Source: Thalassotalea hakodatensis
Lineage (GTDB): Bacteria > Pseudomonadota > Gammaproteobacteria > Enterobacterales > Alteromonadaceae
DNA: 64,000 nt
Assembly (NCBI RefSeq): GCF_030295995.1
Contig: NZ_AP027365.1
Location: 248,001-312,000, forward strand
Direction of reading: 5' to 3'
The position numbers were made by a program, and so were the translations under genes. The notes below the pieces were generated by a model. That model was not told the origin of the DNA. It made no database searches and saw only the letters and a program-made list of their open reading frames with translations. How positions within the stretch are numbered: position 1 is the first letter of the stretch; each line of letters begins with the position of its first letter. Positions 42,861 through 64,000 of the stretch are shown piece by piece.

Positions 42861-44129
42861 ATGAAGACAAATTACACAGGAGTCGCACTTGTACTCGTTA
42901 CGTTCTTTGCTATTTCTTTTATCACCAATATTCTGGGACCGCTATTTCCATCGCTGGTTAAAGATTTTGATATTAGCCTAGCTGTCGCGGGTTTTTTACC
43001 GTTTTCTTTTTTTGCTGCTTACGGTGTGATGTCAATCCCTTCGGGTATTTTAGTGGATAAATACGGTGAAAAATTCGTCATGTTAGCCGCTTTTGTCATG
43101 GCTGCTACCGGGTCTTTCCTTTTTGTGTTGAACCCTAGTTTTTTTATGGCGATGGGGTCGTTATTTTTAGTGGGTACTGGTATGGCAATGTTGCAGGTAG
43201 CAATTAATCCATTATTGCGCGTATCAGGTGGCCAAGAGCACTTTGCTTTTTACTCAGTGCTAGCTCAATTGCTTTTCGGTGGTGCTGCAACTCTAAGCCC
43301 TATTGTGTATAGCAATGTTGTTCAGGCGATGGCAAGTGGTGAAACGTCTGGCATCATAGGTTTTTTCAATAATAATGTTCCAGCGAATATGAGCTGGCTT
43401 TCAATGTATTGGATTTTTGCCGCTGTATCTGTCGCAATGCTTATCTTAATTACGTTAATTAAATTGCCAAAAGTTGAGTTAAAAGAAGACGAAGCTGTTG
43501 GTGCGATTGGTATTTATAAGCAATTATTGAAAAACAAATCAGTGATATTATTTTTTATCGGTATTGCTGCATATGTCGGTACAGAGCAAGGTGTTGCTAA
43601 CGCCATTTCAATTTTCTTAGAACGCTACCATGGTTTAGATCCCGTTATCGTAGGCGCTGAAGTCGTTAGTGATTTTTGGTTAATGCTGACACTAGGTTGT
43701 TTGTTAGGTTTGGTGTTGGTTAAGTTATTAGATAGCCGTTTAGTCTTGAAAATTTTTTCTGGGGCTGCAATGATAGCGCTGTCATTTGCGTTATTTGGTA
43801 GTGCAGAAGTCTCGGTGAATGCATTTCCGCTAGTGGGTTTTTTCCTATCGGTAATGTGGTCAGTAATATTTTCACTGGCGTTGAATTCAGTCGCAGAGCA
43901 TCACGGTTCTTTCGCTGGCATCTTATGTACCGGTATTGTCGGTGGTGGTTTAGCATCACCTTTGATAGGTGCAATAGCCGACATAACTGGCGATTTACGT
44001 GTGGGTATGATCGTGGTGTATATCACCTTAGGTTATATTTTTACTATTGGTTTTTGGGCAAAACCTTTAGTGGTGAACAAAACAATTAAGTTGTTTAACA
44101 AACACCATGCTGATTCAACAGTTACGTAA
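42861..44129 (+). CDS. nagP: GlcNAc permease NagP (FucP-family MFS transporter)
   Basis: A 422-residue major facilitator with 12 predicted helices, of the fucose-permease-like branch. Signatures include the N-terminal GPLFPSLVKDFDISLAVAGFLPFSFFAAYGVMSIPSGILVDKYGEK segment and the mid-protein FIGIAAYVGTEQGVANAISIFLERYHG (Glu and Gln in the substrate path). In Shewanella and Xanthomonas GlcNAc regulons NagP is the proton-coupled inner-membrane GlcNAc transporter. Neighbouring hexosaminidase and ROK kinase genes support that substrate. A clear ribosome-binding site (AATAAGGACAC) precedes ATG 42861. Confidence 0.88.
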   Translation: MKTNYTGVALVLVTFFAISFITNILGPLFPSLVKDFDISLAVAGFLPFSFFAAYGVMSIPSGILVDKYGEKFVMLAAFVMAATGSFLFVLNPSFFMAMGSLFLVGTGMAMLQVAINPLLRVSGGQEHFAFYSVLAQLLFGGAATLSPIVYSNVVQAMASGETSGIIGFFNNNVPANMSWLSMYWIFAAVSVAMLILITLIKLPKVELKEDEAVGAIGIYKQLLKNKSVILFFIGIAAYVGTEQGVANAISIFLERYHGLDPVIVGAEVVSDFWLMLTLGCLLGLVLVKLLDSRLVLKIFSGAAMIALSFALFGSAEVSVNAFPLVGFFLSVMWSVIFSLALNSVAEHHGSFAGILCTGIVGGGLASPLIGAIADITGDLRVGMIVVYITLGYIFTIGFWAKPLVVNKTIKLFNKHHADSTVT

Positions 44130-44202
44130 TATGAATAGAGATAAGAGAAGCTTTTAAAATGGCTGCTCATTTGGGGCAGCTAAACGATAAGGTAATAAAC
44201 AC

Positions 44203-46863: not shown

Positions 46864-46879
46864 TATACTCAAATATGAC

Positions 46880-46903
46880 GCCGAGTATCCATTAATGCTC
46901 GGC
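46880..46903 (+). repeat. Hairpin between hexosaminidase and ROK kinase genes
   Basis: GCCGAG (46880-46885) pairs with CTCGGC (46898-46903) with a 12-base loop, 16 bases past the hexosaminidase stop. No T-tract follows. It may be an mRNA-stabilising or attenuating structure within the operon; support is weak. Confidence 0.35.
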
Positions 46904-46931
46904 ATATCTTCTAACGTTATTAGGTTTTCCA

Positions 46932-47783
46932 ATGCAACCCACTTCGTTTGTTACTTTAGACATTGGCGGTACTAAAGTAAATTTTGGTCTATTCCGCGAC
47001 GGCATTATTGAACATAATCAAGAAATACCCTTTTGTGCGCATGGTAGTTCAGCACAGATACGTCAGTTTTTAATTGATGGCATTGCTGCAATGATTGCTT
47101 CAGATACTACAGCTATCTGTATCGGCGTACCTTGTATTGTTGATGTTGAAAATGGCATCGTATTCGATGCGGTCAACATTCCTGCATGGCAAAAATATCC
47201 ACTAAAAGATGAATTGAGTGACTATTTCGATTTACCCGTATACATCAATAATGATGTAAATTGTTTTGTTGCAGGAGAAGCCACTTTTGGTGATGTTGCC
47301 CGTTTTGAGAAAAATGTAGTTGGAATTTGCCTAGGTACTGGCTTTGGTACAGGGTTTTATTTAAACGATCAATTGTATGCTGGCCATAACTGTTGTGCGG
47401 GTGAGCTCGGCGGCATTCCGTATTTAAAGGGAACACTTGATGATTATTGCTCAGGTTCTTTTTTTACTAAAATACACCAAGTAAATGGTGCCGAATTGGC
47501 TGAAAGAGCACGCTCGGGTGATGTTGCGGCACAAGCTATTTTCGATGAATTTGCTCAGCACTTAGCAAAAGGCATCAGCTATTTAATGTTTACGGTTGAT
47601 CCAAAAGTGATTGTTGTTGGTGGCTCTGTCGCTAAATCGTTTGATTTGTATATTGATTCACTTAGGCAGTCATTAGATAGTTTTCCTTATAAAAAAGTAC
47701 GAACTAATCTAATTATCGTAAAAAGTGAACTAGATAACGCTGCTCTTCTTGGCGCAGCAGCCTTATATATAGGCAGTTGTTAA
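46932..47783 (+). CDS. nagK: ROK-family N-acetylglucosamine kinase
   Basis: A 283-residue ROK kinase. The ATP loop LDIGGTKVNFGLF (9-21), catalytic Asp108 in INNDVNCF, GTGFGTGFYLND and VIVVGGSVAKS are clear. The usual ROK zinc motif CxCGxxGC is missing: after GHNCCAGELGG the chain reads IPYLKGTLDDYCSG. This non-zinc variant occurs in some GlcNAc and glucosamine kinases. It would phosphorylate imported GlcNAc in the cytoplasm. Deacetylase and deaminase (nagA/nagB) are not in the window. Its 3' end overlaps the convergent STAS gene by 21 bases. Glucosamine or glucose specificity is possible. Confidence 0.82.
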   Translation: MQPTSFVTLDIGGTKVNFGLFRDGIIEHNQEIPFCAHGSSAQIRQFLIDGIAAMIASDTTAICIGVPCIVDVENGIVFDAVNIPAWQKYPLKDELSDYFDLPVYINNDVNCFVAGEATFGDVARFEKNVVGICLGTGFGTGFYLNDQLYAGHNCCAGELGGIPYLKGTLDDYCSGSFFTKIHQVNGAELAERARSGDVAAQAIFDEFAQHLAKGISYLMFTVDPKVIVVGGSVAKSFDLYIDSLRQSLDSFPYKKVRTNLIIVKSELDNAALLGAAALYIGSC

Positions 47784-48378: not shown

Positions 48379-49850
48379 ATGAATATGCTAAATGCATTAC
48401 ACTGCTACATTGATGGGCAGTTTCAACCAAGTGAAACTTACTTTGATAATGTTAGCCCGATAAACGGTGAAAAAATTGCGGATATTGCTGAAGCGAGTCC
48501 ACAGCAAATTGATGCCGCAGTTCAGGCTGCAAAACAGGCACTTAATGGTGACTGGGGCCAAATGAGTGTTCAGCAGCGAAGCGTGTTATTGCATAAAGTC
48601 GCTGATCGTATTGAAGCAAGGTTAACCGAGTTTATTGACGCAGAAATAGCGGATACTGGCAAATCACTTCATCAAGTTGAAACCATCGATATTCCTCGTG
48701 CCGCAGCAAACTTTCGTACCTTTGCAGATCTTGCAAAATTTCATTCTGGTGAAACGTTTATGACGGAAACAGCTAGTGGTGAGCAGGCGCTCAATTATTC
48801 GGTTAATAAACCGTTAGGGGTTGTCGCGATTATTTCACCATGGAATCTCCCTTTACTGTTGGCAACCTGGAAAATAGCGCCAGCACTGGCTTGCGGAAAC
48901 TGCGTGATTTTGAAACCTTCTGAAGAAACATCATCGACAGCCTTTTTATTAGCGCAAGTTATGGATGAAGTAGGTATGCCTGAAGGTGTGTTTAATCTGA
49001 TATTAGGTCGTGGAAATAGGGTAGGTGATTTACTCACCGAGCACGGTAAAGTGGATGCGATCACATTTACTGGGTCGTCATCTACAGGGCAACATATCAT
49101 GAAAAGGGTAGCCTCAGGAGTTAAATCGATTTCTTTTGAACTTGGCGGTAAAAATGCTGCTATCGTTTTTCAAGATGCAGATATTGATAAAGCCGTTGCC
49201 GGCGTAGCTCGCTCTTCCTTTACTAATTGTGGTCAGGTATGCCTATGTACTGAGCGCGTCTATGTACACCGTGAAATATACCAAGAATTTGTCGAGCGCT
49301 TAGTAAAAGCAGCCAAAGCAATAAAAATAGGTTACCCGAAAGAGCCAAATGTGCTTATTGGGCCATTAATTTCCAAACAACATCAACAAAAAGTATTGTC
49401 CTATTACCAACAAGCAAAAAAATCAGGGGCAAAGGTTCTTACCGGGGGAGGTGTGCCTAATTTTGGTGATGAACGTGATAACGGTTGTTTCATTGAGCCA
49501 ACCATTATTACGGGGTTGTCGGATGAAGATCCGGTCAATCAAGAGGAAATTTTTGGCCCGATATGTCACGTCGCAATGTTTGATAGTGAACAAGAGGTGA
49601 TCAGTCGAGCTAATAACACAGTTTATGGCCTTGCCGCCGCTATTTGGACGGAAAACTTATCAAGAGCGCATCGAGTAGCACCGAAAATGGAGGTTGGTCT
49701 TGTGTGGGTAAATACTTGGTTTTTACGTGATCTTCGAACACCTTTTGGTGGCGTTAAATTATCGGGCATCGGTCGAGAAGGGGGCGCGCATTCTATGGCA
49801 TTTTATAGCGAACCTACCAATATTTGTATCAACATTGATAAGAGCGAAAA

Positions 49851-49854
<4 letters not shown>
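48379..49854 (+). CDS. amnC: 2-aminomuconate-6-semialdehyde dehydrogenase (AmnC/NbaE-type aldehyde dehydrogenase)
   Basis: A 491-residue NAD-dependent aldehyde dehydrogenase. [23 protein letters not shown] (NAD site), [12 protein letters not shown] with the general-base Glu and [13 protein letters not shown] with the catalytic Cys are intact. Its closest types are the 2-hydroxy- and 2-aminomuconic semialdehyde dehydrogenases. In this operon it oxidises aminomuconate semialdehyde released by ACMSD to 2-aminomuconate. The start is uncertain: TTG 48340, ATG 48379 and ATG 48385 are in frame and none has a good ribosome-binding site; alignment with the family favours the ATG pair. The next gene overlaps by 4 bases (ATGA). 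Confidence 0.85.
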
Positions 49855-50841
<987 letters not shown>

Positions 50842-50842
<1 letters not shown>

Positions 50843-51864
50843 TGCAGGTGGTTGATATACATTCACATTTTTTCCCAAAAGAATGGCCGAGTCTTCAAGA
50901 GAAATTTGGTGGTAACGATTGGCCTTGGTTACAACATTTACCGAATGAAAAAAATGAAAGTGGCTTTGCCAAAGCGATGTTAATGAAAGGCGATAAACCA
51001 TTTCGTCCTATCTATGCCGCTTGCTGGGATCCTGAAATAAGATTGGCAGAAATGGACGCCCAAGGCGTTTCGCAGCAAATTATTTCTGCCACGCCGATTT
51101 TATTCGCTTATGAAAAGCCCCTTGAACAAGCGGTGTACTGTGCGCAGATATTCAATGATGCCGCGCTAGAGATTTGCCAACAAGGTAAAGGGCGTTTGTT
51201 TTCTATGGCACAAGTGCCTTTACAAGATGCAGATGCTGCGTGTGAAGAAGCAAGTCGAGCAATGAACACCGGTCATGTTGGTATTCAAATTGGGAATCAC
51301 GTGGGCGAGAAAAACATGGATGACGAAGGCGTATTAACCTTTCTTCAACATTGTGCTGCAGAGAACATACCGGTTTTTGTGCACCCTTGGGACATGATGG
51401 CAGCAAGCCGCACGAAAGATTACATGATGGGTTGGACGGTAGGAATGCCTGCTGAAACGCAGCTTTCGATCGTGTCGATGATTTTGGGTGGTGGCTTTGA
51501 CCGTATTAGCCGCGACTTAAAGATTTGCTTTGCCCATGGTGGTGGTGCATTCGCTTTTTTACTTGGCCGATTGGAAAATGCTTGGCTTCATCGAGATATT
51601 GCCCGTGGTAAGTCTGAATATCCGCCTAGTCATTACTTAGATAGATTTTATTTAGATACCGCGGTGTTTGATCATGATGCGCTCGAATTATTGGTTAAGA
51701 AAATGACCACCGATCGTTTGTTGTTTGGTACTGATTACCCTTTCCCGTTAGGTGAGCAAAAAATGGGCGCATTAATTAAAACCGCGCCAAATTTATCGGA
51801 TGCCGAAAAGCAACAAATGCTCGCCACGAATGCACAATTATTCTTTTCTTTGCCGACTTGTTAA
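50842..51864 (+). CDS. nbaD: 2-amino-3-carboxymuconate-6-semialdehyde decarboxylase (ACMSD)
   Basis: A 340-residue zinc-dependent amidohydrolase-fold decarboxylase. Metal ligands and catalytic residues are His7 and His9 (DIHSHF), His181 (FVHPWD), His232 (FAHGGGAF) and Asp298 (FGTDYPFP). It decarboxylates the ring-opened product of the dioxygenase to 2-aminomuconate semialdehyde, directing carbon to oxidation and away from quinolinate/NAD synthesis. Its ATG overlaps the stop of the dioxygenase gene. Family, length and context agree. Confidence 0.95.
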
Positions 51865-51875
51865 TTGAGAATGTT

Positions 51876-53168
51876 ATGACCTTTGAAAATACCCTAGCTT
51901 ATGCACAAAAACTTGATAATGAAGATCCATTAGCGAGTTATCGAGATAAATTCTATCACCCGGTCATAGAGGGAAAGCAGGTTTTGTATTTCACCGGAAA
52001 CTCTTTAGGTTTACAGCCGAAAGCAGCAAAAGAATATCTACAAGTAGAACTTGATGATTGGGCTGCATGGGGAGTAGAAGGGCATTTTCACGGTCGAAAT
52101 CCTTGGGTGAGTTATCATGAACTGTTAACACCAGCAAGTGCAGAACTTGTTGGTGCAAAAGCATCAGAAGTGGTGTGTATGAACTCGTTGACCACCAACT
52201 TACATTTATTATTTGTCAGCTTTTATCGTCCGTCTAAGCAGCGTTTTAAAATTATCAGTGAAGCTAAAATGTTTCCATCTGACCGCTACTTACTGGAAAC
52301 TCAAGTAAAACATCATGGCTTTGAACCTGATGAAGCCATTATCGAAATTTCACCGCGAGAGGGTGAATTTACCATCAGAGAAAGCGATATTTTAGCCGCG
52401 ATTGAAGAGCACCGTGATGAACTTGCCTTAGTGTTTTTCGGTGGGGTTAATTATTTTACTGGCCAGCTATTTGATATGAAAAAACTAACCGCAGCTGCAC
52501 ATAATGTTGGCGCATTAGCGGGTTTTGATTTGGCACATGCTGTTGGTAATGTGCCATTGAAACTTCATGATTGGCAAGTAGATTTTGCCGCTTGGTGTAC
52601 TTACAAATATCTCAACGGAAGTGCTGGTAATGTCGGGGGAATTTTTGTGCATGATAAGCATGGTCAAGATACCGAAATTCCCCGTTTTGGTGGTTGGTGG
52701 GGGCATAATAAAGAACGTCGGTTTTTAATGGAAAACACCTTTGAGCCCATGGCAGGCGCTGAAGGTTGGCAATTAAGCAATGTGCCGATAATGGGGATGG
52801 CGGTGTTGAAATCATCACTTGATATTTTTGAAAAGGCTGGCATGGATGCGCTACGAAAAAAGAGCCTTACACTCACCGCCTTTTTGCAATATGTGTTTAA
52901 TGATGTTGTTAACAAGTTTACTCATATTAAACTGCAAATTATTACTCCCGTAGCACCAGAGCAACGAGGATGCCAATTATCAGTAAAGCTTATTGGTACC
53001 GATAAACGATTTTTTAATCAATTAACTAACGCTGGTGTGATCACTGATTTTAGAGAGCCAGATGTGGTTAGGCTTGCCCCCGTGCCGCTGTATAATTCCT
53101 TTGAAGATATCTATCAATTCGGTCAACAATTAAACGCCTTGCTTAAGGAAATGGCCAATGATAGCTAA
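51876..53168 (+). CDS. kynU: Kynureninase
   Basis: A 430-residue PLP-dependent enzyme. [11 protein letters not shown] (substrate carboxylate region), [22 protein letters not shown] (PLP Asp) and [12 protein letters not shown] with the PLP lysine are intact, as are RFGGWWGHN and the C-terminal [16 protein letters not shown]. It hydrolyses kynurenine or 3-hydroxykynurenine to (3-hydroxy)anthranilate and alanine. I chose ATG 51876 with GAGA before it; TTG 51858 lies inside the preceding gene. The next gene overlaps by 11 bases. Confidence 0.95.
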
Positions 53169-54540
53169 GCCATCTATTGCGATTAACGGTGCTGGGCCTG
53201 TTGGCGCATTATTAGCGCTGATGTTAGCTAAGCGCGGTTACCCTATTGATCTATTCGAATCTCGACCAGATTCACGAAAAAGCAATATCTATCAAGGTAA
53301 ATCGATTAATTTAGCGCTTTCCGATCGTGGTTGGAAAGCGTTAAATGCAGTGGGCGTTGATGAAGAAATTCGTCAACAAGCGATTCCCATGTATTGCCGT
53401 GTCATGCACGATATTGAAGGGAATATCACCAAACAAAATTATGGCAAAGATAGTCAAGCCATTTGGTCTGTTTCTCGCTCAGGTATTAATGAGCAATTAA
53501 TGACATTAGCCGAACAGCAAAACAATGTGTCACTACATTTCTCTCATCGACTCACCCAGCATGATTTTGACACAAACACCGCGACTTATATTGATGCAAA
53601 TAAACAAATCAAACAACATCAAACCGATTTACTTTTTGGCGCTGATGGCACGTTTTCTAAAGTAAGACGATTAATGCAAGAACTGCCGCTGCAGCGAATA
53701 AGCTATAGTTTAGAGTACATGCCGCAAAGCTACATTGAATTAACCATTCCGGCTGGGGAAAACGGCGAACATCTGATGGAAAAAAATGCGCTTCATATCT
53801 GGCCACGTAAAGATTTTATGCTGATCGCATTACCGAATGCTGATGGCTCGTTTACTTGCACCTTGTTTATGGATCATCAAGGTGAGGTTTCATTCTCTGC
53901 GTTCACTGAATATGAAACAGTCGCAGCGTTCTTTGAACAGTATTTTGCCGATGCGCTACCGTTACTCGTTAATCCGATAGAAGAATTTCTTGCGAAGGCA
54001 CCTTCACCGTTATGTTTGGTACATGTTTACCCTTGGTTGGTTAATCATCAAGTAGCACTTATTGGTGATGCTGCACATGCAATGGTGCCATTTTATGGTC
54101 AAGGCATGAACTGTGGCTTTGAAGATTGTCGTGTGTTGTGTGAGCTACTGGATAATTTTCAGGGAGACTGGCAGCAAACATTAATGGCCTACCAGCAGGA
54201 GCGAAAAGAAAATGGCGATGCGATTATTGAATTAGCAAAGCGTAACTTTATTGAAATGAGTGACTTAGCCGGCGATGAACGCTTTCTGTTACGTAAGAAA
54301 ATTGAAGCTCGCTTTCATCAACGTTATCCTGAATTATGGATCCCGCTCTATTCAATGGTGACATTTTCACCCAATATTTCATACAAAACTGCACTTGAAA
54401 TAGGTGACATTCAAGCCAAAATTATGGATGAAATTATGCAGATAGATAATATTGAAAAATGCTGGCAAGACGAATCTGTAATGACAACCCTATATGAATT
54501 GAGCCGCGATTCTATTCCGCTAATTCAGCAGGAGAGATAA
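53158..54540 (+). CDS. kmo: Kynurenine 3-monooxygenase
   Basis: A 460-residue FAD-dependent aromatic hydroxylase. The N-terminal FAD motif is [19 protein letters not shown], followed by [13 protein letters not shown]. The second FAD motif [22 protein letters not shown] is specific for KMO. The C-terminal part has a hydrophobic stretch ([13 protein letters not shown]), which in this family helps form the active site. It uses NADPH and oxygen to make 3-hydroxykynurenine. It overlaps kynU by 11 bases and precedes tryptophan dioxygenase by one base. Confidence 0.95.
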
Positions 54541-54541
54541 C

Positions 54542-55414
54542 ATGAACTGCCCATATCATCCCTCTCAATCGAAAAAGACAACATCAAATTATCGCGAAAT
54601 GGAAGAGAGCATTCATACTAACTTTGAAGATGATATGTCGTACGGTGATTATTTATGCCTTGAGCAAATTTTAACCGCACAAAAGCCACTATCTGCACAA
54701 CATGATGAAATGTTATTTATTACAATTCATCAAACCAGTGAATTATGGTTAAAGCTCGCTGGGCATGAATTAACTGCTGCCATTACAAATATTCAACAAG
54801 CAGACTTTGGTCACGCTTTTAAAGTGATTTCTCGCGTTAAACATATACTCAATCAATTAACCCAGTCTTGGAACATTTTATCAACATTGACGCCTGTTGA
54901 TTACTTGAAATTTCGTGATGCGTTAGGCCACTCATCTGGATTTCAATCATATGGTTATCGTAAACTTGAATTTTTATTAGGGAACAAAAACGCGAGTTTA
55001 TTAGCGGTGCATAAAAATCAACCGGAAAGTTATCAATCTTTAAATGCTGTGCTTCATGCGCCAAGCTTATACGATGAAGTACTTCGAGCATTAGCAAAAA
55101 ATGGCTTGGCTATTGATAAGCACGTACTTGAAAGAGATTTTACCCAACCCTATCAGCAAGATGAATCTGTGCTGCAAGCATGGTTAAACGTTTATCAACA
55201 TGCTGATGAACATTTCCAGATGTATGAGCTTGCTGAAAAATTGATTGATATTGAAGATGCCTTTCAGCAGTGGCGGTTTAAACATATGTATACGGTGCAA
55301 CGTATTATTGGTCATAAAGCAGGAACAGGTGGTTCGTCTGGTGTCAGTTTTTTAAAGAAAGCATTAGATATTAGTTTTTTTCCTGAACTGTTTGCTTTAC
55401 GTACTCATTTATAA
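54542..55414 (+). CDS. kynA: Tryptophan 2,3-dioxygenase
   Basis: A 290-residue haem dioxygenase, normal length. YGDYLCLEQIL, DEMLFITIHQTSELWLKL (haem/substrate region with the active-site His), GHSSGFQSYGYRKLEFLLGNKN and the C-terminal QRIIGHKAGTGGSSGVSFLKKAL with the proximal haem His are all present. It opens the indole ring of L-tryptophan to N-formylkynurenine, the first step, although its gene is the last enzyme gene of the operon. A formamidase to process the product is not found nearby. Confidence 0.96.
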   Translation: MNCPYHPSQSKKTTSNYREMEESIHTNFEDDMSYGDYLCLEQILTAQKPLSAQHDEMLFITIHQTSELWLKLAGHELTAAITNIQQADFGHAFKVISRVKHILNQLTQSWNILSTLTPVDYLKFRDALGHSSGFQSYGYRKLEFLLGNKNASLLAVHKNQPESYQSLNAVLHAPSLYDEVLRALAKNGLAIDKHVLERDFTQPYQQDESVLQAWLNVYQHADEHFQMYELAEKLIDIEDAFQQWRFKHMYTVQRIIGHKAGTGGSSGVSFLKKALDISFFPELFALRTHL

Positions 55415-55446
55415 TTGTGAAATTATTTTTATCGTTATAGCATGAT

Positions 55447-55465
55447 ATATCAGTAATATTGATAT
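55447..55465. promoter_or_regulatory. LysR-type dyad before the LysR gene
   Basis: ATATCA (55447-55452), 7 bases, TGATAT (55460-55465) is a perfect dyad. It contains the T-N11-A pattern of LysR-type boxes, ending 11 bases before the GTG start of the regulator. It is a candidate autoregulatory site. Confidence 0.45.
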
Positions 55466-55476
55466 GTTGAAACTCA

Positions 55477-56397
55477 GTGGACATTAGCAAAAGCCAATTA
55501 ACGATCAGTCATTTAAAAATGATTTGTCAGTTAGCTGAAAGTGAAACGGTAAAAGAGGCGGCTCAAGCATTATTTATTTCTCAGCCGGCATTAACCAACC
55601 GTATTCGCGAGGCTGAAAAACGTTTAAATAGCCAATTATTCTACCGCCGTGGTCGTCGAATTTATATGTCGAATGCGGGTAAACGTTTGCTGGTATCAGC
55701 CAAGAAAATTTTACAAGAATTAGCGCGCGTCGAACATGATATTTCTCGCTTAACTCATGGTGTTGAGCAGGTGCTACGCATTAGTATGCCGCACTATGCA
55801 AACTTTTCATGGCTACCTGATGTACTTGAAGGTTTTTCGTTAAGCTACCCTCAAATAGAGCTTGAAATTACTTCGCAATCACCGGTTAAACCGCTTCAAG
55901 CTTTGCATAATCATGATGTAGATGTGGCTATTATTTCTAGTGCTAAGGCCGAGTTAGAAATAGATGCAGAGCAATATGTTGCTAAAGTGATCACGCAAGA
56001 TGAGTTAGTCGCTTGTTTATCTAAGCAACATCACAAATCAAATCAGGCGTTTTTGATGCCGGAAGATTTCGCCGATCAAACCTATGTGACAAATTCAACT
56101 GAAGCAGAAACTGAACGTGAATATGAGTTGTTTTTTAAACCAGCAGGGGTTATCCCGCCAAAAGTGTTACAAGTAGGTTTTAATGATGCCATTCTCGCGT
56201 TAGTTAAAGCAAATGTAGGTGTGTCTATATTTTCTCAACGTCAATTAACCCGTTATCTACCTGACGCTTCCTTAACAACATGTCAATTAGGTGAAGCCGG
56301 GTTACCGGTATTTTGGCATGTTGTTTATCGCAAACATGATCCTATTATTGCGCCGGCAGAAAAATTATTTTCTCTTTTATCTCAACATTATAACTAA
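55477..56397 (+). CDS. LysR-family transcriptional regulator of the kynurenine cluster
   Basis: A 306-residue regulator. The N-terminal winged HTH (LKMICQLAESETVKEAAQALFISQPALTNRIREAEKRL, about 13-48) is typical LysR, and the remainder is the two-lobe effector-binding domain. The start is GTG 55477; no better ATG is in frame. It follows the tryptophan dioxygenase gene by 62 bases on the same strand, so it probably regulates the operon. The effector may be tryptophan, kynurenine or another pathway intermediate; this is inferred from position only. It could alternatively act on the downstream operon. Confidence 0.87.
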   Translation: MDISKSQLTISHLKMICQLAESETVKEAAQALFISQPALTNRIREAEKRLNSQLFYRRGRRIYMSNAGKRLLVSAKKILQELARVEHDISRLTHGVEQVLRISMPHYANFSWLPDVLEGFSLSYPQIELEITSQSPVKPLQALHNHDVDVAIISSAKAELEIDAEQYVAKVITQDELVACLSKQHHKSNQAFLMPEDFADQTYVTNSTEAETEREYELFFKPAGVIPPKVLQVGFNDAILALVKANVGVSIFSQRQLTRYLPDASLTTCQLGEAGLPVFWHVVYRKHDPIIAPAEKLFSLLSQHYN

Positions 56398-56434: not shown

Positions 56435-56447
56435 GTTACTAAGTAAC
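56435..56447. promoter_or_regulatory. Palindromic candidate operator of the sugar-acid operon
   Basis: GTTACT-A-AGTAAC is a perfect 13-base palindrome, 59 bases before the first start codon of the operon that encodes an RpiR-family regulator. RpiR proteins bind palindromes of about this size. No second copy was looked for exhaustively. Confidence 0.45.
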
Positions 56448-56506
56448 CATTAGTTTGATATATTGTTGTTATATTTTAACATTGATGTCTGTTGAAAGGC
56501 GATAAT

Positions 56507-57748
56507 ATGACAACAAGCAAACAGCAACTGCATGTAAATAAAGGCTTTGGCGATGTAACCGCGTTAGAGGGCTCTGGTTGGAATATTCTTAATGAAGAGG
56601 TTGGCTTACCCGTAGCGGTACTTGATGAGGCATCTTTACAGAGTAATGCGCAGTGGATGCAATCTTTTAGTGAGCAAGCCGGTGTTAAATTAGCTCCGCA
56701 TGGTAAAACTACCATGTCCCCAGAGCTTTTTAAGCAACAGTTGTCACAAGGATGTTGGGGCATAAGCTTGGCAACTATTCCTCAGGTGGTAAGTGCTTAC
56801 AAACAAGGCGTTAAACGCTTTATACTTGCCAATCAATTAATCGGTAAATTTCACTGTCAGCAACTAGTGGAAATTTTACAAGATCCTGATGTTGAATTTT
56901 ATTGCTTTGTTGAATCAGTGGCTAATGTTGTGTTTTTAGGTGAATTTTTCCAACAGCAAAAAGCAACGTTAAACGTGTTGATAGAAATAGGCGTGCCAGG
57001 TGGTCGTTGTGGTTGGCGCGATGTTGACAACATTGAGCCACTTGTTGATGCAATTTCAGCACAACCTGCGTTGCAGTTATCGGGTGTTAGCTTTTATGAA
57101 GGCGTGATTCACGGTGAAGATGCACAAGCAAAGATAGTGCATTTTATTGAGCGTATTAAGCAATTGTTTAATACGCTACAGCAACAAGGCCGATTCAACG
57201 GTGAAAATGTGATCATTACTGGTGCTGGCTCCGCTTGGTATGATGTCGTCGCTAACGCATTAACTCAAGAACAATCATTAAACTTTACCGCCATTATTAG
57301 ACCTGGTTGCTATTTGATACATGATACCGGCATCTATCAAGATGCGCAGCAAACGATCATGCAACGCAGCCAACTAGCGTGTGATATTGGCGGCGACCTG
57401 ATTTCTAGCCTTTACGTGTGGGCGTATGTTTATGCTACGCCTGAACCAGGATTAGTCATTGTCGGTTTAGGTAAGCGAGATGCTGCGTTTGACGCAGGGT
57501 TGCCAACCCCTACCTTGTATTATCGCCCTGGTAACGACAAACCACAGCAAGTACCTAATAGCTGGGAGTCGGTAAAAATAATGGATCAACACTTGATGCT
57601 CAAGGTTGACGAAAGTGCCGATTTACAACCTGGCGATATGATGTGTTTTTCAACGTCACACCCGTGTCTAACGTTTGATAAATGGCGTTTTATTGGCATT
57701 AGTAATGACCAACATGTGATCACAAAACAAGTGGCGACTTACTTCTAA
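56507..57748 (+). CDS. DSD1-like PLP/zinc amino-acid dehydratase; probable D-glucosaminate deaminase
   Basis: A 413-residue fold-III PLP enzyme. The PLP lysine is Lys67 in KLAPHGKTTM, and the zinc pair His385/Cys387 is in the C-terminal SHPCLTFDKWR, both diagnostic of the D-serine dehydratase/D-threonine-aldolase-like family. Alone it would be called D-serine deaminase-like. Placed with a D-aminoacylase-family deacetylase, a KDG-kinase-like protein and a GH20 gene, its likely substrate is D-glucosaminate, giving 2-keto-3-deoxygluconate and ammonia. ATG 56507 has AAAGG 7 bases upstream; a TTG at 56492 overlaps that site. The RpiR gene follows directly. Confidence 0.82.
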   Translation: MTTSKQQLHVNKGFGDVTALEGSGWNILNEEVGLPVAVLDEASLQSNAQWMQSFSEQAGVKLAPHGKTTMSPELFKQQLSQGCWGISLATIPQVVSAYKQGVKRFILANQLIGKFHCQQLVEILQDPDVEFYCFVESVANVVFLGEFFQQQKATLNVLIEIGVPGGRCGWRDVDNIEPLVDAISAQPALQLSGVSFYEGVIHGEDAQAKIVHFIERIKQLFNTLQQQGRFNGENVIITGAGSAWYDVVANALTQEQSLNFTAIIRPGCYLIHDTGIYQDAQQTIMQRSQLACDIGGDLISSLYVWAYVYATPEPGLVIVGLGKRDAAFDAGLPTPTLYYRPGNDKPQQVPNSWESVKIMDQHLMLKVDESADLQPGDMMCFSTSHPCLTFDKWRFIGISNDQHVITKQVATYF

Positions 57749-58600
57749 ATGGATATTTTAACCCGAATAAGTCAGCGTTATGATCACATGCGCCCGGCGG
57801 AACAAAAAGTAGCAGATTTGATCCGAAAAGATTTAAAGTTTGCCAGTCGTTGTGCCATTCAACAGTTGGCGAAAAAAGCAGGCGTGAGTCATGCCAGTAT
57901 TACCCGTTTAGCAAAAACGTTAGCTTGTGATGATGTACGTGATTTAAAACTGCAGCTAGCACAAGTTGCTGCCGTTGGAGAGCGTTTTCATAATGAACAG
58001 CATATCGAACAACAAGATATGCCAGAGGTATATCAATCTATTCAAGATATTTTGCAGGTTAATCGGGGTTTAATCACCAAAGATAAATGTATCACGGCAG
58101 CTGAATTAATTTTAGCGGCAAATCATTGTTTAATTTTTGGTGTAGGCGGTGGTAGTACCATCTTTGCGCAAGAGTGCCAACATCGATTATTCCGCTTAGA
58201 TGTCAAAAGTAATGCGTATTCTGATCCCATGTTAATGCGGATGACAGCAGCAAGCATTGATGCCAATGATTTACTGATTTGTTTATCGTTAAGCGGTAAA
58301 AGCCCTGATGTGTTAGAAGCTGCCAACATCGCTAAGGAGTACGGTGGCAAAGTCGTTGCTATTTGTCCAGAAGGCGAGTTATCAGCGTTGGCTGATGTGC
58401 ACTTGCCTATCACCACTCAAGAAATGGATTTTATTTATATGCCAAGCGCATCACGGTACGTGTTATTAGCTGCGATTGACATGCTAGCAAGTGAAGTAGC
58501 GTTTAAGAATCAGCGAAAGTCGCGTGAAAAATTGCGCCGAATTAAATTACAACTTGATGAGCATCGTGGTTGTGCGAGTAGAACACCATTAGGCGATTAA
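57749..58600 (+). CDS. RpiR/MurR-family transcriptional regulator
   Basis: A 283-residue regulator. The N-terminal HTH_6 domain (AEQKVADLIRKDL ... QQLAKKAGVSHASITRLAKTL, about 15-60) precedes a SIS sugar-phosphate-binding domain (LIFGVGGGSTIFAQECQHRL and ICLSLSGKSPDVLEAANIAKEYGGKVVAIC). Effectors in this family are phosphosugars or sugar acids; KDPG or a related keto-deoxy acid would suit this operon. It starts one base after the deaminase stop, inside the operon it presumably controls. Confidence 0.9.
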   Translation: MDILTRISQRYDHMRPAEQKVADLIRKDLKFASRCAIQQLAKKAGVSHASITRLAKTLACDDVRDLKLQLAQVAAVGERFHNEQHIEQQDMPEVYQSIQDILQVNRGLITKDKCITAAELILAANHCLIFGVGGGSTIFAQECQHRLFRLDVKSNAYSDPMLMRMTAASIDANDLLICLSLSGKSPDVLEAANIAKEYGGKVVAICPEGELSALADVHLPITTQEMDFIYMPSASRYVLLAAIDMLASEVAFKNQRKSREKLRRIKLQLDEHRGCASRTPLGD

Positions 58601-58613
58601 AAGGAAGCATGAT

Positions 58614-60077
58614 TTGTACGATTTGATCATTAAAAATGCACAAGTAATAGATGGCAGCGGAGCCCCTGCTCAGCAAGTTGATGTTGCCATTTGTGGAGAC
58701 AAAATTGCTACGGTAGGTGAGTCACAGGCATTTAGTAAACATGTTATTGATGCGAAAGGTTTAGTGCTTTCGCCAGGGTTTATAGATGTTCATACCCATG
58801 ACGATCTGGAAGTTGTGCGTAACCCTGACATGCTCGCCAAAGTGAGTCAGGGGGTTTCTACCGTTGTCGTTGGAAATTGCGGCATCAGTGCTAGCCCCTA
58901 TCAACTTGGCATTGAACCACCAGACCCTATCAATTTGTTGGGCAAGCAGGGTGAGTTTAACTTTGCTTGTTTGTCTGAATATATTGATTATTTATCATCA
59001 GCACCGCCTAACGTGAATGTCGTCGCATTGGTGGGTCATACGGCATTACGCGCGCAGGTAATGGATGATTTATCTCGAGGTGCTACCGATGATGAAATTG
59101 CTAAAATGCAGCAATTACTCCGCCGTGCACTTGAACAAGGTGCAAAGGGGTTAAGTACAGGGCTGGCTTATAAAAATGCTAAAGCGTCAACTGAGCACGA
59201 AACACAAGCTCTTGCCAGTGTACTGCATGATTTTGATGCATTATATACCACGCATTTACGCACAGAGTTTGACGGGATTATTGACGCGTTAGATGAGGCG
59301 TTTACCTTAGGGAAGAAAGTGCAATCACCGGTGGTTATCTCTCATTTAAAATGTGCAGGGAAGCAAAATTGGGGCAGATCAAAAGAGATCATAGCGCATG
59401 TTGAGCAGGCCGCACAACAACAGCCGATTGCCTGTGATTGTTATCCGTATCACGCAAGTTCTAGCACCTTAGATTTAAACCAAGTGACTGATGATTTTGA
59501 AATTTTTATAACCTGGTCAGATGCAGAGCCAACAATGGCTGGTCAGAGCTTGGCGGCTATTGCGAAGACGTGGAATGTGAGCTTACAGGATGCAGCAAAA
59601 CGTTTAATGCCAGCAGGTGCTGTTTACCACGGTATGAACGAACAAGATGTTGAAGCATTTTTAAAATATGACAGAAGCATGATTGGTTCAGATGGCTTGC
59701 CGTGTGATCCACATCCACACCCTAGGTTGTGGGGAGCGTTTCCTCGCGTACTTGGACGATACAGCCGAGATAAGTCATTATTTCCGTTAGCAACTGCAAT
59801 TCATAAAATGACAGGAAAGTCGGCGGAAAATTTCAATTTACACAATCGAGGACTGATTAAATCAGGCTATTACGCTGATTTAGTGTTATTTGATCCAAAA
59901 AGCATTATTGACAATGCTGACTTTACTGCACCTTTTGCTGTTTCTTCTGGCATTAAAAAGCTGTGGGTCAATGGTCGGTTAACTTACCAACAAGGTGAAG
60001 GGGTATGCCCTACAGAGCATTCTCCTCGCACCGGACAATTTTTAAAACATACATATATCAAGAGGAATAAATCATGA
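58614..60077 (+). CDS. D-aminoacylase-family amidohydrolase; probable N-acetylglucosaminate deacetylase
   Basis: A 487-residue zinc amidohydrolase. DVHTHDD with His60 and His62, Cys89 in GNCGIS, His214 in THLRTE, His244 in SHLKCAG and Asp360 in IGSDG match the metal and catalytic residues of D-aminoacylases. In isolation it removes acetyl from N-acyl-D-amino acids; in this operon the substrate is likely N-acetyl-D-glucosaminic acid, itself an N-acetyl 2-amino acid. The start is TTG 58614 with AAGGAAG 6 bases before; a nearby ATG (58609) is out of frame. RidA overlaps its end by 4 bases. Confidence 0.85.
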   Translation: MYDLIIKNAQVIDGSGAPAQQVDVAICGDKIATVGESQAFSKHVIDAKGLVLSPGFIDVHTHDDLEVVRNPDMLAKVSQGVSTVVVGNCGISASPYQLGIEPPDPINLLGKQGEFNFACLSEYIDYLSSAPPNVNVVALVGHTALRAQVMDDLSRGATDDEIAKMQQLLRRALEQGAKGLSTGLAYKNAKASTEHETQALASVLHDFDALYTTHLRTEFDGIIDALDEAFTLGKKVQSPVVISHLKCAGKQNWGRSKEIIAHVEQAAQQQPIACDCYPYHASSSTLDLNQVTDDFEIFITWSDAEPTMAGQSLAAIAKTWNVSLQDAAKRLMPAGAVYHGMNEQDVEAFLKYDRSMIGSDGLPCDPHPHPRLWGAFPRVLGRYSRDKSLFPLATAIHKMTGKSAENFNLHNRGLIKSGYYADLVLFDPKSIIDNADFTAPFAVSSGIKKLWVNGRLTYQQGEGVCPTEHSPRTGQFLKHTYIKRNKS

Positions 60078-60460
60078 CAATTACTCGTTTTGGCGCTGAT
60101 GGCGGCGTAGGTACAGGTGGTCAACATTTACCGTTTTCAAGTGCAGTAGAAGCTGGCGGTTGGCTTTATGTTTCTGGTCAAACACCGATGACCGATGGTG
60201 AAGTTGTCGAAGGTGGTGTTGTTGAACAGTCACGCTTAGCAATTGATAACTGCATTAAAATTATGACAGATGCGGGGTACGGTTTAGAAGATGTGGTGCA
60301 TGTGAAAGTGATCTTAACCGATGCACGTTATTTTCAATCGTTTAATAAAGTCTTTAAAGAATACTTCGGTGAACATCCACCAGCGCGTATTTGTGCCGTT
60401 GCTGACTTAGTGGTTGATGTAAAAGTTGAAGTTGACGTTACGTGTTATAAAGCACCGTAA
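60074..60460 (+). CDS. RidA-family enamine/imine deaminase
   Basis: A 128-residue YjgF/RidA-fold protein. PFSSAVEAGGWLYVSGQTPM, VHVKVILTDARYFQSFNKVFKEYF and PPARICAVADLVVDVKVEVDV are typical, with the conserved active-cleft Arg in PPARIC and the Glu in VEVDV. It probably hydrolyses the enamine/imine intermediate released by the PLP-dependent dehydratase of the same operon. It is coupled to the deacetylase by an ATGA overlap and followed by the symporter gene after 19 bases. A direct enzymatic deaminase role is possible. Confidence 0.88.
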   Translation: MTITRFGADGGVGTGGQHLPFSSAVEAGGWLYVSGQTPMTDGEVVEGGVVEQSRLAIDNCIKIMTDAGYGLEDVVHVKVILTDARYFQSFNKVFKEYFGEHPPARICAVADLVVDVKVEVDVTCYKAP

Positions 60461-60479
60461 ATAAAGAGGGAGTGAGCTA

Positions 60480-61922
60480 ATGGAAGGTGTTTTCTTCGTT
60501 GCATTCGCGCTATATGTGTTAGGTATGATCGGACTGAGTTGGTGGGTATCGCGCCGACAAACGTCGGGTGAAGACTTTTTACTGGGTGGTCGCAGTTTAC
60601 CGTTACTGCTTACCTTAGGTACTACCGTCGCGACTATGGTTGGTACTGGCTCTTCGATGGGAGCGGTGGGTTTTGCTTATCACAACGGCTGGGCTGGCAT
60701 GCTGTACGGCATAGGCGGCGCCATTGGTATCTTGCTATTAGCGTGGATATTTGCCCCTATGCGCAGATATCAATTTATGACCATGAGTGAAGAAATAGCG
60801 TTTTATGTTGGTGCTCATCCTTTAATCAAAAACTTATTGGCGATTGTAATATACATCGCCAGTATTGGTTGGCTAGGCGCACATATCATTGGTGGTGGCA
60901 TGTATCTTTCTTGGCTGACTGGCTTAGATATCAACACCGCTAAAATGATTATTGCGATTAGTTTCGCTATTTATGTCATTATTGGCGGTTATACTGCTGT
61001 GGTTTGGACAGATTCAATTCAGGCGCTGATCTTATTTGTTGGCTTTATTTTAATGGCATATTTTTCAGTGGACTATGTAGGTGGCTGGCAAGCAATGCTA
61101 GATGCACAACCAACAGCGAACACTTCTTGGTTTGCAATAGATAAAGTTGGTGCCTTGCATGCTTTATCATTAAGTTTAGCGATATTAGTAGGTATTTTGG
61201 CAACGCCGTCATTTAGACAACGGATATATTCGGGTAAAAGTGTTAGCTCAATTCGTCGCTCTTTTATTTATTCAGGTGTGCTGTATCTGGGATTTTCAAT
61301 TGTACCTGCAATCATTGGCATGTCAGCGTATGCGATTAATCAAGATTTAGACAATGCTTCATTTGCCTTTCCTCATCTTGCATTGAATGTGATGCCACTT
61401 GCGTTAGGGGTGTTAATTATTATTGCGGGTATATCTGCGACATTATCAAGTGCAAGTTCAGATGCGATCGCAGCAGTGAGTGTAGCTATGCGCGATTTAT
61501 ATCGCTTAGTTACTGGCAAAATGCCAAAGCCTGATCGCGTGATTTGGTTGTCACGTTTTAGCCTGTTTTTTACCATCAGCATCGCGCTTGGTTTTGCACT
61601 ATTGTCGGATGATATTATTTCCTATATTACCAAGATGATCGCTATATTAATGTCTGGTATGTGTGTTGCTGGCTTACTCGGTCGTTTCTGGCCAAGATAT
61701 AACTGGCAAGGTGCGTTACTCACCTTATTGTGTTCAACTGTTTGTGCGTTAGCGGTAAGTTTAATACCACAATGGGAAAGTTACTGGGGTAATCCTGTTA
61801 TTCCTGCGCTAATTGCCGGTACAATATCGGGTATTATTGGCAGTTTAGTGACACCAGCGTCAGAATTAGACGAACAACATGCATTGGATGTCTTAGCGAA
61901 AGAACGGAAGCAAATGGAGTAA
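60480..61922 (+). CDS. Sodium:solute symporter (SSF family), probable sugar-acid importer
   Basis: A 480-residue transporter with about 13 transmembrane helices and the LeuT-fold SSF pattern. ARRQTSGEDFLLGGRSLP-type N-terminal motif (here SRRQTSGEDFLLGGRSLP), TVATMVGTGSSMGAVGFAYHNGWAGMLYG and GISATLSSASSDAIAAVSVAMRD carry the sodium-site Ser residues. It imports a substrate with Na+, fitting a marine bacterium. Operon partners suggest N-acetylglucosaminate or glucosaminate. Substrate is inferred; the family also carries sugars, amino acids and sialic acid. The kinase gene starts 3 bases later. Confidence 0.85.
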   Translation: MEGVFFVAFALYVLGMIGLSWWVSRRQTSGEDFLLGGRSLPLLLTLGTTVATMVGTGSSMGAVGFAYHNGWAGMLYGIGGAIGILLLAWIFAPMRRYQFMTMSEEIAFYVGAHPLIKNLLAIVIYIASIGWLGAHIIGGGMYLSWLTGLDINTAKMIIAISFAIYVIIGGYTAVVWTDSIQALILFVGFILMAYFSVDYVGGWQAMLDAQPTANTSWFAIDKVGALHALSLSLAILVGILATPSFRQRIYSGKSVSSIRRSFIYSGVLYLGFSIVPAIIGMSAYAINQDLDNASFAFPHLALNVMPLALGVLIIIAGISATLSSASSDAIAAVSVAMRDLYRLVTGKMPKPDRVIWLSRFSLFFTISIALGFALLSDDIISYITKMIAILMSGMCVAGLLGRFWPRYNWQGALLTLLCSTVCALAVSLIPQWESYWGNPVIPALIAGTISGIIGSLVTPASELDEQHALDVLAKERKQME

Positions 61923-61925
61923 GCC

Positions 61926-62843
61926 TTGAATAATATTGTATTTTTAGGGGAATGTATGATTGAGGACCACTCAGACGGTTTGTTCCGTTTCGGTGGTGAT
62001 ACGCTCAATACTGCGTTGTATTTAGCTAGGCTTACTGAAAATGTACCGATAAATGTTGCGTTTGCGACGTCAATTGGTATTGATTTAGACAGTAACTTAT
62101 TACTCGCCGCGTGGAAAAAAGAAGGCATTGATACCAGGTTTGTTACTCAGCTTGTCGATAAATTCCCTGGTCGTTATCGTATTAAAACGGATAAACAAGG
62201 TGAGCGAAGCTTTAAATACCAACGAAGTAATAGTGCTGCTCGATATTATTTAACCTCATCACCAGGCGCTTTAACCCGATTTATTGCTGGTCGTACAGGT
62301 GATTATTTATATGTTAGCGGGATTAGCCTAGCGATTATTTCTCCTGAAGATAGAGTGTGGCTATTTGATGCATTAGCACGTTTTAAAGCGAATGGTGGCA
62401 AGGTTATTTTTGACAATAATTATCGACCGGTACTGTGGAATAAAAAAGAGGTTCTACCTACTTATCAGAGCGCAATGGCGTTAGCGGATATTGCTTTTTT
62501 AACCGATGAAGATGAATTTGAAATTTATCAAGATAATTCATTGGATGGTATTATTTCTCGCGCAAAACAATACAATACAACGGAAACCATTATTAAACGG
62601 GGCAGTGAACCTTGTATTATTATCAATAGCCAAGGTGAGCAACAAGCGGTAAGTGCTGAACCTGTCACTAATCTTGTTGATACCTGTGCTGCGGGTGATG
62701 CATTTGCGGCAGGTTATCTTTCACAACGGCTTCAGCATGCAAGTGTTGAACATTGTGCGCAATTTGCCCATCGAGTTGCAGGTAGAGTTATTCAGTACTC
62801 AGGTGCCATTGTTGACCGCAAGGTTATGGCCGATCTTTTTTGA
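61926..62843 (+). CDS. kdgK: PfkB-family sugar kinase, probable 2-keto-3-deoxygluconate kinase
   Basis: A 305-residue ribokinase-fold kinase. FGGDTLNTALYLARL (N-terminal substrate site), VSGISLAII, FDNNYRPVLW and the C-terminal DTCAAGDAFAAGYL with base Asp258 are seen; the usual DTTGAGD reads DTCAAGD here, with anion-hole spacing kept. FDNNYRPxLW is characteristic of KdgK. It phosphorylates 2-keto-3-deoxygluconate to KDPG for Entner-Doudoroff cleavage. The start is TTG 61926, 3 bases after the symporter stop. KDPG aldolase is not in the window. Confidence 0.87.
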   Translation: MNNIVFLGECMIEDHSDGLFRFGGDTLNTALYLARLTENVPINVAFATSIGIDLDSNLLLAAWKKEGIDTRFVTQLVDKFPGRYRIKTDKQGERSFKYQRSNSAARYYLTSSPGALTRFIAGRTGDYLYVSGISLAIISPEDRVWLFDALARFKANGGKVIFDNNYRPVLWNKKEVLPTYQSAMALADIAFLTDEDEFEIYQDNSLDGIISRAKQYNTTETIIKRGSEPCIIINSQGEQQAVSAEPVTNLVDTCAAGDAFAAGYLSQRLQHASVEHCAQFAHRVAGRVIQYSGAIVDRKVMADLF

Positions 62844-62861
62844 CGTAAAAGGTAAAATTTA

Positions 62862-64000
62862 ATGTTTAATCGATTATTTTCTATTGCTCTTGTTATGTTG
62901 TGCCTAAACATCAACATGGTCTCGTGGGCTAACGATTTGTCACTCAACGTAATGCCCTACCCTAAAACAGTCATTATTAATGAGCAGGAATTTACCATTA
63001 GCGATGGCTTTTCGATTTCGGTAGAAGGTGGGAGTAAACAACGTTCCGCTCAATTGAAAAATACCTTAGAGTCACAAATCAGTACCTTTGGCTGGCAAGT
63101 TTCTACAACGAATGATAAGGCAATACCGATTGTTATTCGTATTAACCAAGGGGGGGGGTTGGATTATCAATTTCCGGCGTTACATCAAGATGAAAGTTAT
63201 CAACTCACGCTAGATAACCAGCAAGTATTGCTCGAAGCAAAATCTGACTTCGGTGCATTGCATGGCGTGGCAACATTGACACAATTGCTTTATCAAGCAA
63301 AAAGTAACCAGGTGTTGGCCCAGCTTACCATTAAAGATCTTCCTAGGTTTCCATGGCGTGGCTTTATGCTAGACAGTGTTCGCCACTTTATTTCTATTGA
63401 TGCGATAAAGCGTCAATTACGTGGTATGGCTGCGGCAAAGTTAAATGTATTTCATTGGCATCTTACCGATGATCAAGGGTGGCGTATTGCCCTAGATAGT
63501 TACCCTGAATTACATAAAAAAGCCTCTGACGGACAATATTATACCAAAGCACAAATTCGTGAAGTGGTTGAGTATGCAAGCTTGCTAGGCATTCGCGTAG
63601 TACCCGAGTTTGATGTACCAGGTCATGCGTCTGCTATTGCTGTTGCATATCCCCATTTAATGAGTGAGCAAAAACACTATCAAATGGAAGATGGTTGGGG
63701 AGTATTTGAACCGTTATTAGATCCAAGTAACCCTGAAGTCTATCAGTTTATTGATGGTGTGATTGCAGAGTTAACCACGCTATTTCCTGATCAATATTTA
63801 CACATTGGCGGTGATGAAGTTGATCCAACGCAATGGAATAATAGTACTGAAATTCAGGCATTCATGAAAGAAAATAGCTTGCAAGATGCGCATGCATTAC
63901 AAGCATTTTTTAATCAAAAAGTGGCTGGAATACTGGCTAAACATCAACGTAAAATGATGGGGTGGGATGAAATATTCCATCCAGATTTGCCACAAAATAT
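62862..64000 (+). CDS. GH20 beta-N-acetylhexosaminidase, truncated by the window end
   Basis: Starts at ATG 62862 with AAAAGGT upstream and is open to the edge (about 379 residues seen). It has a signal peptide (FNRLFSIALVMLCLNINMVSWA), a GH20b domain (about 30-160), then the TIM barrel: PWRGFMLDSVRHFISIDAIKR, KLNVFHWHLTDDQGWRI, VVPEFDVPGHASA and the catalytic Asp318-Glu319 in HIGGDEVDPTQW. Unlike the GH20 at 44203 it lacks the CHB_HEX domain, so it is the shorter exo-hexosaminidase type. A run of nine G (63150-63158) encodes Gly-Gly-Gly at codons 97-99. It is the last visible gene of the sugar-acid operon, and likely releases terminal GlcNAc from (oxidised) chitooligosaccharides. Confidence 0.92.
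   Translation, partial: MFNRLFSIALVMLCLNINMVSWANDLSLNVMPYPKTVIINEQEFTISDGFSISVEGGSKQRSAQLKNTLESQISTFGWQVSTTNDKAIPIVIRINQGGGLDYQFPALHQDESYQLTLDNQQVLLEAKSDFGALHGVATLTQLLYQAKSNQVLAQLTIKDLPRFPWRGFMLDSVRHFISIDAIKRQLRGMAAAKLNVFHWHLTDDQGWRIALDSYPELHKKASDGQYYTKAQIREVVEYASLLGIRVVPEFDVPGHASAIAVAYPHLMSEQKHYQMEDGWGVFEPLLDPSNPEVYQFIDGVIAELTTLFPDQYLHIGGDEVDPTQWNNSTEIQAFMKENSLQDAHALQAFFNQKVAGILAKHQRKMMGWDEIFHPDLPQN

Follow-up and report, generated by a model that had tools for sequence, protein, structure and literature searches.

The question raised by the right-hand end of the 64,000-nucleotide stretch of DNA analysed here (the window; C1:248001-312000 of the one-contig, 4,275,310-base genome of Thalassotalea hakodatensis) is whether a run of seven genes serves the breakdown of D-amino acids, as the usual names of its protein families would have it, or the use of N-acetylglucosaminate (GlcNAc1A) from oxidised chitin. 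A GlcNAc1A pathway has been proven in Pseudoalteromonas prydzensis ACAM 620, in which the cluster consists of eight genes, encoding a pair of transporters, a regulator of the RpiR type, a hexosaminidase, a kinase, a deacetylase, a deaminase and a RidA protein, and both the reactions and repression by OngR were demonstrated in Pseudoalteromonas (PMC9537276). The run in the window is very probably an ong cluster with this pathway; it extends the known system to Thalassotalea, the pathway itself being already published. The genes are as follows.

56507 to 57748, plus strand: ongC, putative pyridoxal phosphate-dependent (fold type III) D-glucosaminate dehydratase/deaminase, 413 amino acids; Pfam PF14031 (D-ser_dehydrat) and PF01168 (Ala_racemase_N).
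57749 to 58600, plus strand: ongR, putative MurR/RpiR-type repressor, 283 amino acids; PF01418 (HTH_6) and PF01380 (SIS).
58614 to 60077, plus strand: ongB, putative GlcNAc1A deacetylase, 487 amino acids, first codon TTG; Amidohydro_3, solved relative PpOngB (9kb1, 618 bits).
60074 to 60460, plus strand: ongD, RidA-family protein, 128 amino acids; PF01042 (Ribonuc_L-PSP), 88.5 bits.
60480 to 61922, plus strand: ongIT, sodium:solute symporter, 480 amino acids; PF00474 (SSF), 147 bits.
61926 to 62843, plus strand: kdgK, putative 2-keto-3-deoxygluconate (KDG) kinase, 305 amino acids, first codon TTG; PfkB (Pfam), NCBIfam NF052444.
62862 to 64000, continuing to window-equivalent 65264, plus strand: ongA, GH20 hexosaminidase with a signal-like N-terminus; PF00728 (Glyco_hydro_20) and PF02838.

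Open reading frames (ORFs) and Pfam confirmed the seven-gene run on the plus strand in the order given by the original prediction. The run is unbroken from 56507 to beyond the window end, with successive gaps from ongC to ongA of 0, 13, -4 (an overlap), 19, 3 and 18 bp; ongA continues for 1264 bases outside the window, encodes 800 amino acids at full length (L001:2862-5264) and is adjoined at its 3′ end by a convergent alpha/beta-hydrolase gene. The Pseudoalteromonas chitin-oxidation pathway to which the original prediction pointed proved to be real, with the same genes in the same roles (PMC9537276), and the GlcNAc1A reading, proposed from gene content, is now also backed by protein families, the closest solved enzyme and active-site residues. 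The suggestion that the dehydratase together with RidA yields KDG is not supported as to RidA by the published work, in which OngC alone made KDG and OngD was needed for growth with no role assigned to it (PMC9537276). As had been expected, KDPG (2-keto-3-deoxy-6-phosphogluconate) aldolase candidates occur elsewhere in the genome, two genes belonging to PF01081; these, and the presence of two GH18-family and four GH20 genes, speak for the GlcNAc1A reading.

Among solved proteins OngB is closest to PpOngB at 618 bits, followed by an unnamed amidohydrolase, 9g5m, at 580 and by D-aminoacylase at 441, and a joint alignment gave 59.7% identity to PpOngB and 47.0% to the D-aminoacylase AfDam. At each of 21 active-site positions compared OngB has the residue of PpOngB, the specificity residues Ser292 and Gln298 among them, while AfDam departs from PpOngB at seven of the 21 (79, 193, 256, 290, 292, 298 and 348). 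The window protein has Ala193, Ala256, Ser290, Ser292, Gln298 and Gly348; it thus carries the GlcNAc1A pocket (Ser292, Gln298 and small or polar residues at 193, 256 and 348) and lacks the hydrophobic pocket residues of AfDam. Substrate is set by residues 292 and 298, as shown in the structural paper (PMC12017989). Two residues read differently in that source and in the present alignment: the AfDam residue at the place of 298 is given as Leu and appears here as Arg, and position 79 is given as Cys79 and is Pro in PpOngB here. Ser292 and Gln298 occur together in 44 of 44 OngB rows, with Cys at 348 in four, in a table that counts 10 genomes twice and leaves out L019 (a partial gene), G230, G019, G047, G076 and the distant relatives L022-L063 (42 loci). 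Thalassotalea sp. PP2-459 has the same OngB as the window (100% identity), and the copy in Thalassotalea sp. 1_MG-2023 is 98% identical.

A survey of 345 genomes of the family, with a cut-off of E <= 1e-60 chosen by us for OngB, found OngB in 35 and AA10, the lytic polysaccharide monooxygenase (LPMO) family, in 70. One OngB genome, G015, was dropped as an ong genome because its locus contains genes of the DgoK and DgoA types, lacks both ongR and ongA and encodes different pocket residues, leaving 34 ong genomes; with G015 retained, the counts given below for AA10, for the putative lactonase and for the operator pair become 17/35, 32/35 and 26/35. The G015 locus is as follows.

L216:5690-14481: cluster with OngD-like, OngC-like and OngB-like genes, a 2-keto-3-deoxygalactonokinase and a phosphogalactonate aldolase (2-dehydro-3-deoxy-6-phosphogalactonate aldolase model, 273 bits, cut-off 207).

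The genes ongC, ongR, ongB, ongD and ongIT stand together in 29 of the 30 OngB loci of the family, the 30th being on a 3-kb contig, so that the grouping is more than chance. The exceptions among 15 named loci are two Motilimonas loci without ongIT, kdgK and ongA near ongB (L018, L020) and one without ongIT (L021); L019 stops at a contig end. ongC is inverted in four loci (L018, L020, L158 and L160), and kdgK was often not found beside ongIT in the longer loci.

Upstream of ongC lie two features that bear on control of the cluster.

56435 to 56480, no strand: predicted OngR operator, a paired palindrome GTTA-N5-TAAC, GTTACTAAGTAAC, 20 bases, GTTATATTTTAAC, 33 bp from start to start.
56455 to 56482, plus strand: promoter-like site TTGATA-16-TAACAT, which fills the space between the palindromes and overlaps them, matching the consensus at 9 of 12 positions.

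The exact pair is present in a single copy in the 4.27-Mb genome and was found 0 times in 100 window shuffles; the promoter-like match is weak, 12 such sites being present in the scanned region against 20.7 expected in shuffles. In relatives the pair recurs upstream of ongC at a near-equal distance. Among 37 ongC upstream stretches, which count the near-identical L007, L011 and window separately, a pair with a score of 15 or 16 out of 16 is present in 18, the spacing being 33 bp in 14, 32 bp in three and 31 bp in one. Of the 34 ong genomes 25 contain the exact pair, compared with 2 of 35 control genomes that lack ong; the controls represent 35 genera and are unmatched by genus. The pattern was derived from some of the loci later counted; sites before receptor or lactonase genes, away from ongC, and the control genomes are independent of its derivation. 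As judged from neighbouring frames, the 28 exact pairs of the ong genomes comprise 15 before ongC, 11 before a TonB-receptor gene, one before a lactonase gene and one upstream of ongB on a short contig (G339). There is thus a strong likelihood that the pair, a prediction from sequence, is the OngR operator. Published work found that OngR represses ongOT-1 and ongCRBD and not lpmo or ongIT-kdgK-ongA (PMC9537276), which fits sites before the receptor gene and ongC; here the 19-bp gap between ongD and ongIT implies that ongIT-kdgK-ongA should share the control of ongC. The main text of that paper makes no mention of an operator, motif, palindrome, binding site or electrophoretic mobility shift assay, and a literature search, with supplements and most subscription papers outside its scope, returned nothing on OngR and chitin beyond it; the predicted operator is an addition open to direct test. 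The pair lies directly behind the LysR gene (in the region of window 53158-56397), and one more single GTTA-N5-TAAC palindrome, at window 6509, was taken as chance.

Three other explanations of the locus were weighed. If the standard family names are followed, which they suit, the operon would degrade N-acyl-D-amino acids such as N-acetyl-D-serine through a D-aminoacylase, a D-serine deaminase and RidA, the kinase and the GH20 enzyme being bystanders. The top solved relative of OngC (3gwq, 402 bits) is indeed labelled a D-serine deaminase, and nearly half of the OngB residues (the 47.0% above) are shared with AfDam, but OngB has its own type of residue at 193, 256, 290, 292, 298 and 348, unlike AfDam, the kinase, symporter and GH20 genes accompany OngB in many genomes, and activity confined to GlcNAc1A is reported for PpOngB, PaOngB and PfOngB (PMC12017989). 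The pocket residues led us to drop this explanation, which is very improbable. Another amino sugar acid, such as N-acetylgalactosaminate, would be an equally improbable main substrate: the G015 cluster, with its galactonate-type kinase and aldolase, shows a like logic and probably performs the same chemistry in the use of galactosaminate or N-acetylgalactosaminate, but its OngB-like protein differs at 193, 290, 298 and 348, and in the window the kinase model is of the gluconate type and the pocket is that of PpOngB.

Several observations weigh against the GlcNAc1A reading or parts of it. Besides the label of 3gwq, OngC of P. prydzensis also acts on D-serine and D-threonine (PMC9537276). The kdgK product scores 333 bits with the NCBIfam 2-dehydro-3-deoxygluconokinase model NF052444, under its cut-off of 400; the next model reaches 98, the top solved relatives are YdjH (255 bits) and the ketodeoxygluconokinase 3lhx (240 bits), and by sequence the protein is like a KDG kinase. 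The published KdgK is itself ~36% identical to reported KDG kinases (PMC9537276). ORF tables of 51858-65264 contain no receptor gene; the receptor gene of the published cluster, ongOT-1, is named by its authors as the exception to cluster conservation (PMC9537276). Ten of the 37 ongC upstream stretches have no pair above shuffles (L018, L020, L021, L146, L153, L155, L156, L158, L159 and L160); in L153, L155 and L156 the pair sits before an upstream receptor gene instead. Of the two GH18-family genes in the genome, only one looks like a working chitinase, since the product of the other, a 932-amino-acid protein (L124:9498-12293, G000:C1:1815498-1818293), has Gln in place of the catalytic Glu (DGIEIDWQ).

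An LPMO had been expected elsewhere in the genome, and this expectation was not borne out by the AA10 profile (PF03067), which had no match, or by a Thalassotalea LPMO (G128) used as query, which retrieved only itself and nothing in 18 negatives (17 ong genomes and G015). The 34 ong genomes divide into 17 with and 17 without an AA10 match, and completeness is 84% and 80% for two of the latter and 99-100% for the rest. AA10 is commoner with ong (17/34 against 53/311 others, p 4e-5, a value that treats as independent genomes that are not). A GH18-family gene is present in 32 of the 35 OngB genomes, and G030 and G051 lack both GH18 and AA10. The chances are about even that the strain, lacking an LPMO, feeds on oxidised ends that other microbes produce, and half of the ong carriers, the window genome included, may do so. 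If true, oxidised chitin ends would be a shared good on marine particles and not the private property of their producer. The third explanation is that the cell, not fed by others, makes its own GlcNAc1A through another oxidase or dehydrogenase or an LPMO outside PF03067. The keeping of the whole cluster without a PF03067 match, here and likewise in 17 of 34 ong genomes, would agree with such a source, but ORF tables show no such gene inside the cluster in the loci read (a weak point, as other oxidase families were not searched); it is unlikely, though not negligible.

The GlcNAc1A reading leaves room for a further enzyme. A gene of the SMP-30/gluconolactonase family directly follows ongA in L013, L015, L017 and L153-L157, comes shortly after it in L140, immediately precedes ongC in L147, and in G145 is a lone gene preceded by an operator pair. 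Scans of four stand-alone copies with PF08450 gave 124-156 bits, and the protein has a signal-like N-terminus by eye. In G019 and in genera g18 and g42 the putative lactonase is fused to the GH20 C-terminus, the fusion being seen by Pfam in L200 and L204 and by BLAST in L201, L202, L203, L221 and L222. The three alignments to solved structures examined were to designed propellers. With a profile cut-off of E <= 1e-70, again our choice, the lactonase was found in 73 of 345 genomes: 16/17 with ong and AA10, 16/17 with ong only, 28/53 with AA10 only and 13/258 with neither. In total, 32 of the 34 ong genomes have it, compared with 41 of the remaining 311; since association tests assume an independence that these genomes do not have, the count by genus is safer, with 13 of 13 ong genera against 5 of 39 others. 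Among the five lactonase genera without ong, g18 and g42 have a variant cluster, g37 and g48 have the gene beside an OngA-like gene, and g39 is the fifth. The copy of the window genome (G000:C1:454938-455783) is unlinked to the ong genes.

At C1-oxidised ends the acid is in equilibrium with a 1,5-lactone (PMC12017989), so that a lactonase has an obvious place in the pathway; lactonase activity of the SMP-30-type protein is presumed from its family and context. We tentatively propose, with slightly less than an even chance of being right, that this exported protein is a ninth part of the pathway, opening the 1,5-lactone, and that the fixed-distance GTTA-N5-TAAC pair is the means by which OngR controls the cluster, its TonB receptor and also, in certain genomes, the lactonase. 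The word lactonase appears in neither main text (PMC9537276, PMC12017989), and the literature search described above returned nothing linking a lactonase or SMP-30 with oxidised chitin or LPMOs. If the proposal is true, the lactonase would provide the enzyme for a reaction to which none is assigned in the published scheme.

A variant cluster occurs in six loci of g18 and g42 (L200-L203, L221 and L222), which have ongR, ongD, ongIT, the GH20-lactonase fusion and a receptor gene, with ongC adjoining where the stretch reaches. At the place of ongB they encode an M81/MlrC-family protein (PF07364, PF07171), which in L200 scores 397 bits with the MlrC model (cut-off 999).

L200:3333-4787, L221:3832-5286 and L222:8838-10322: MlrC-family (M81) protein in the variant cluster.

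No OngB match was found in these genomes in the survey (345 genomes, E <= 1e-60), and the MlrC-family protein may be a replacement deacetylase for OngB. The literature search likewise yielded nothing on MlrC and chitin deacetylation.

The best candidate for an importer of oxidised chitooligosaccharides is a 1094-amino-acid TonB receptor encoded between the two GH18-family genes, 1.5 Mb from ong (G000:C1:1818620-1821901). Receptors of relatives that stand behind OngR-type sites are 54-66% identical to it over the full length or the part available; for the receptor that follows the second site of G190 the match is limited to 203 residues, at 36%. OngR control of the 1094-residue receptor itself is not supported in this genome, as the palindromes of L124 are two single ones within the receptor frame, with no pair. 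The neighbouring 932-residue protein joins its GH18 domain to a membrane stretch at ~434-455 and a LytTR DNA-binding domain, and has the look of a chitin sensor and regulator in a single protein, encoded next to the receptor and to the GH18 protein whose motif is intact; the layout recurs in G101. LytTR is listed in a figure legend of chitinolytic protein domains (PMC8802321). A tryptophan-halogenase-family gene (L124:16014-17516, PF04820, 552 bits) lies behind the receptor, and such genes also lie behind receptors with OngR-type sites in L205 and L207-L211.

As to chromosomal setting, a kynurenine-pathway block and a LysR gene precede ong in Thalassotalea (the window genome, L007, L008, L128 and, to the contig end, L019) and in one Colwellia (L010), and a formamidase-like gene follows ong in the Thalassotalea and L010 loci where the contig reaches. 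No match to the tryptophan dioxygenase, the same LysR or the same hydrolase was found in the other ong loci read, and these flanks, confined to Thalassotalea and L010, place the cluster at different chromosomal sites. Its position looks as if it had been inserted into a kynurenine locus; the hydrolase and ong are both present in five of five genomes of the genus, where no empty site is available. In the window the block spans 48379-56397 and by eye encodes kynureninase, a monooxygenase, tryptophan dioxygenase and others, with its own LysR gene; the formamidase-like hydrolase is at L001:5267-6181. Some 9 kb upstream of ong, window 41676-47780 appears by eye to be an N-acetylglucosamine-use block, whose genes we take to be a NagX-like gene, a NagP-like transporter gene and a sugar kinase gene; a second GH20 gene, found by profile, lies within it (window 45256-46497).

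By analogy, this Thalassotalea strain presumably does as Pseudoalteromonas does. A TonB-dependent receptor encoded outside the locus would bring oxidised chitooligosaccharides into the periplasm, where OngA would release terminal GlcNAc1A for import with sodium by OngIT. OngB would deacetylate it to D-glucosaminate, from which OngC would eliminate ammonia to give KDG; KdgK would then form KDPG, to be split by one of the two KDPG-family aldolases. All seven genes would be on one transcript, with OngR bound to the two palindromes around the ongC promoter until released by the substrate or its product.

Compared with the cluster of P. prydzensis ACAM 620, ongC, ongR, ongB, ongD, ongIT, kdgK and ongA are alike here in family and role, and their order is that of the published operons ongCRBD and ongIT-kdgK-ongA. 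The two systems differ in that the short ongD-ongIT gap here probably makes one transcript of what are two operons in P. prydzensis, that P. prydzensis has the receptor gene ongOT-1 inside the cluster whereas this locus has none, and that P. prydzensis has one LPMO whereas this genome has no AA10 match. Among RpiR-type repressors, HexR is nearest to OngR by NCBIfam model, but the score of 149 bits is far under the cut-off of 296 and places OngR outside HexR; the GTTA-N5-TAAC palindrome, used twice at a fixed distance, presumably also differs from that of HexR. The accessory protein belongs by score with the SMP-30/gluconolactonase family (PF08450) and is set apart by its linkage or fusion to ong genes. 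OngB shares with AfDam (PDB 1M7J) a common fold family and the metal and catalytic residues but differs from it at the seven positions named above, and in all 21 positions compared it is like PpOngB (PDB 9KB1, PMC12017989).

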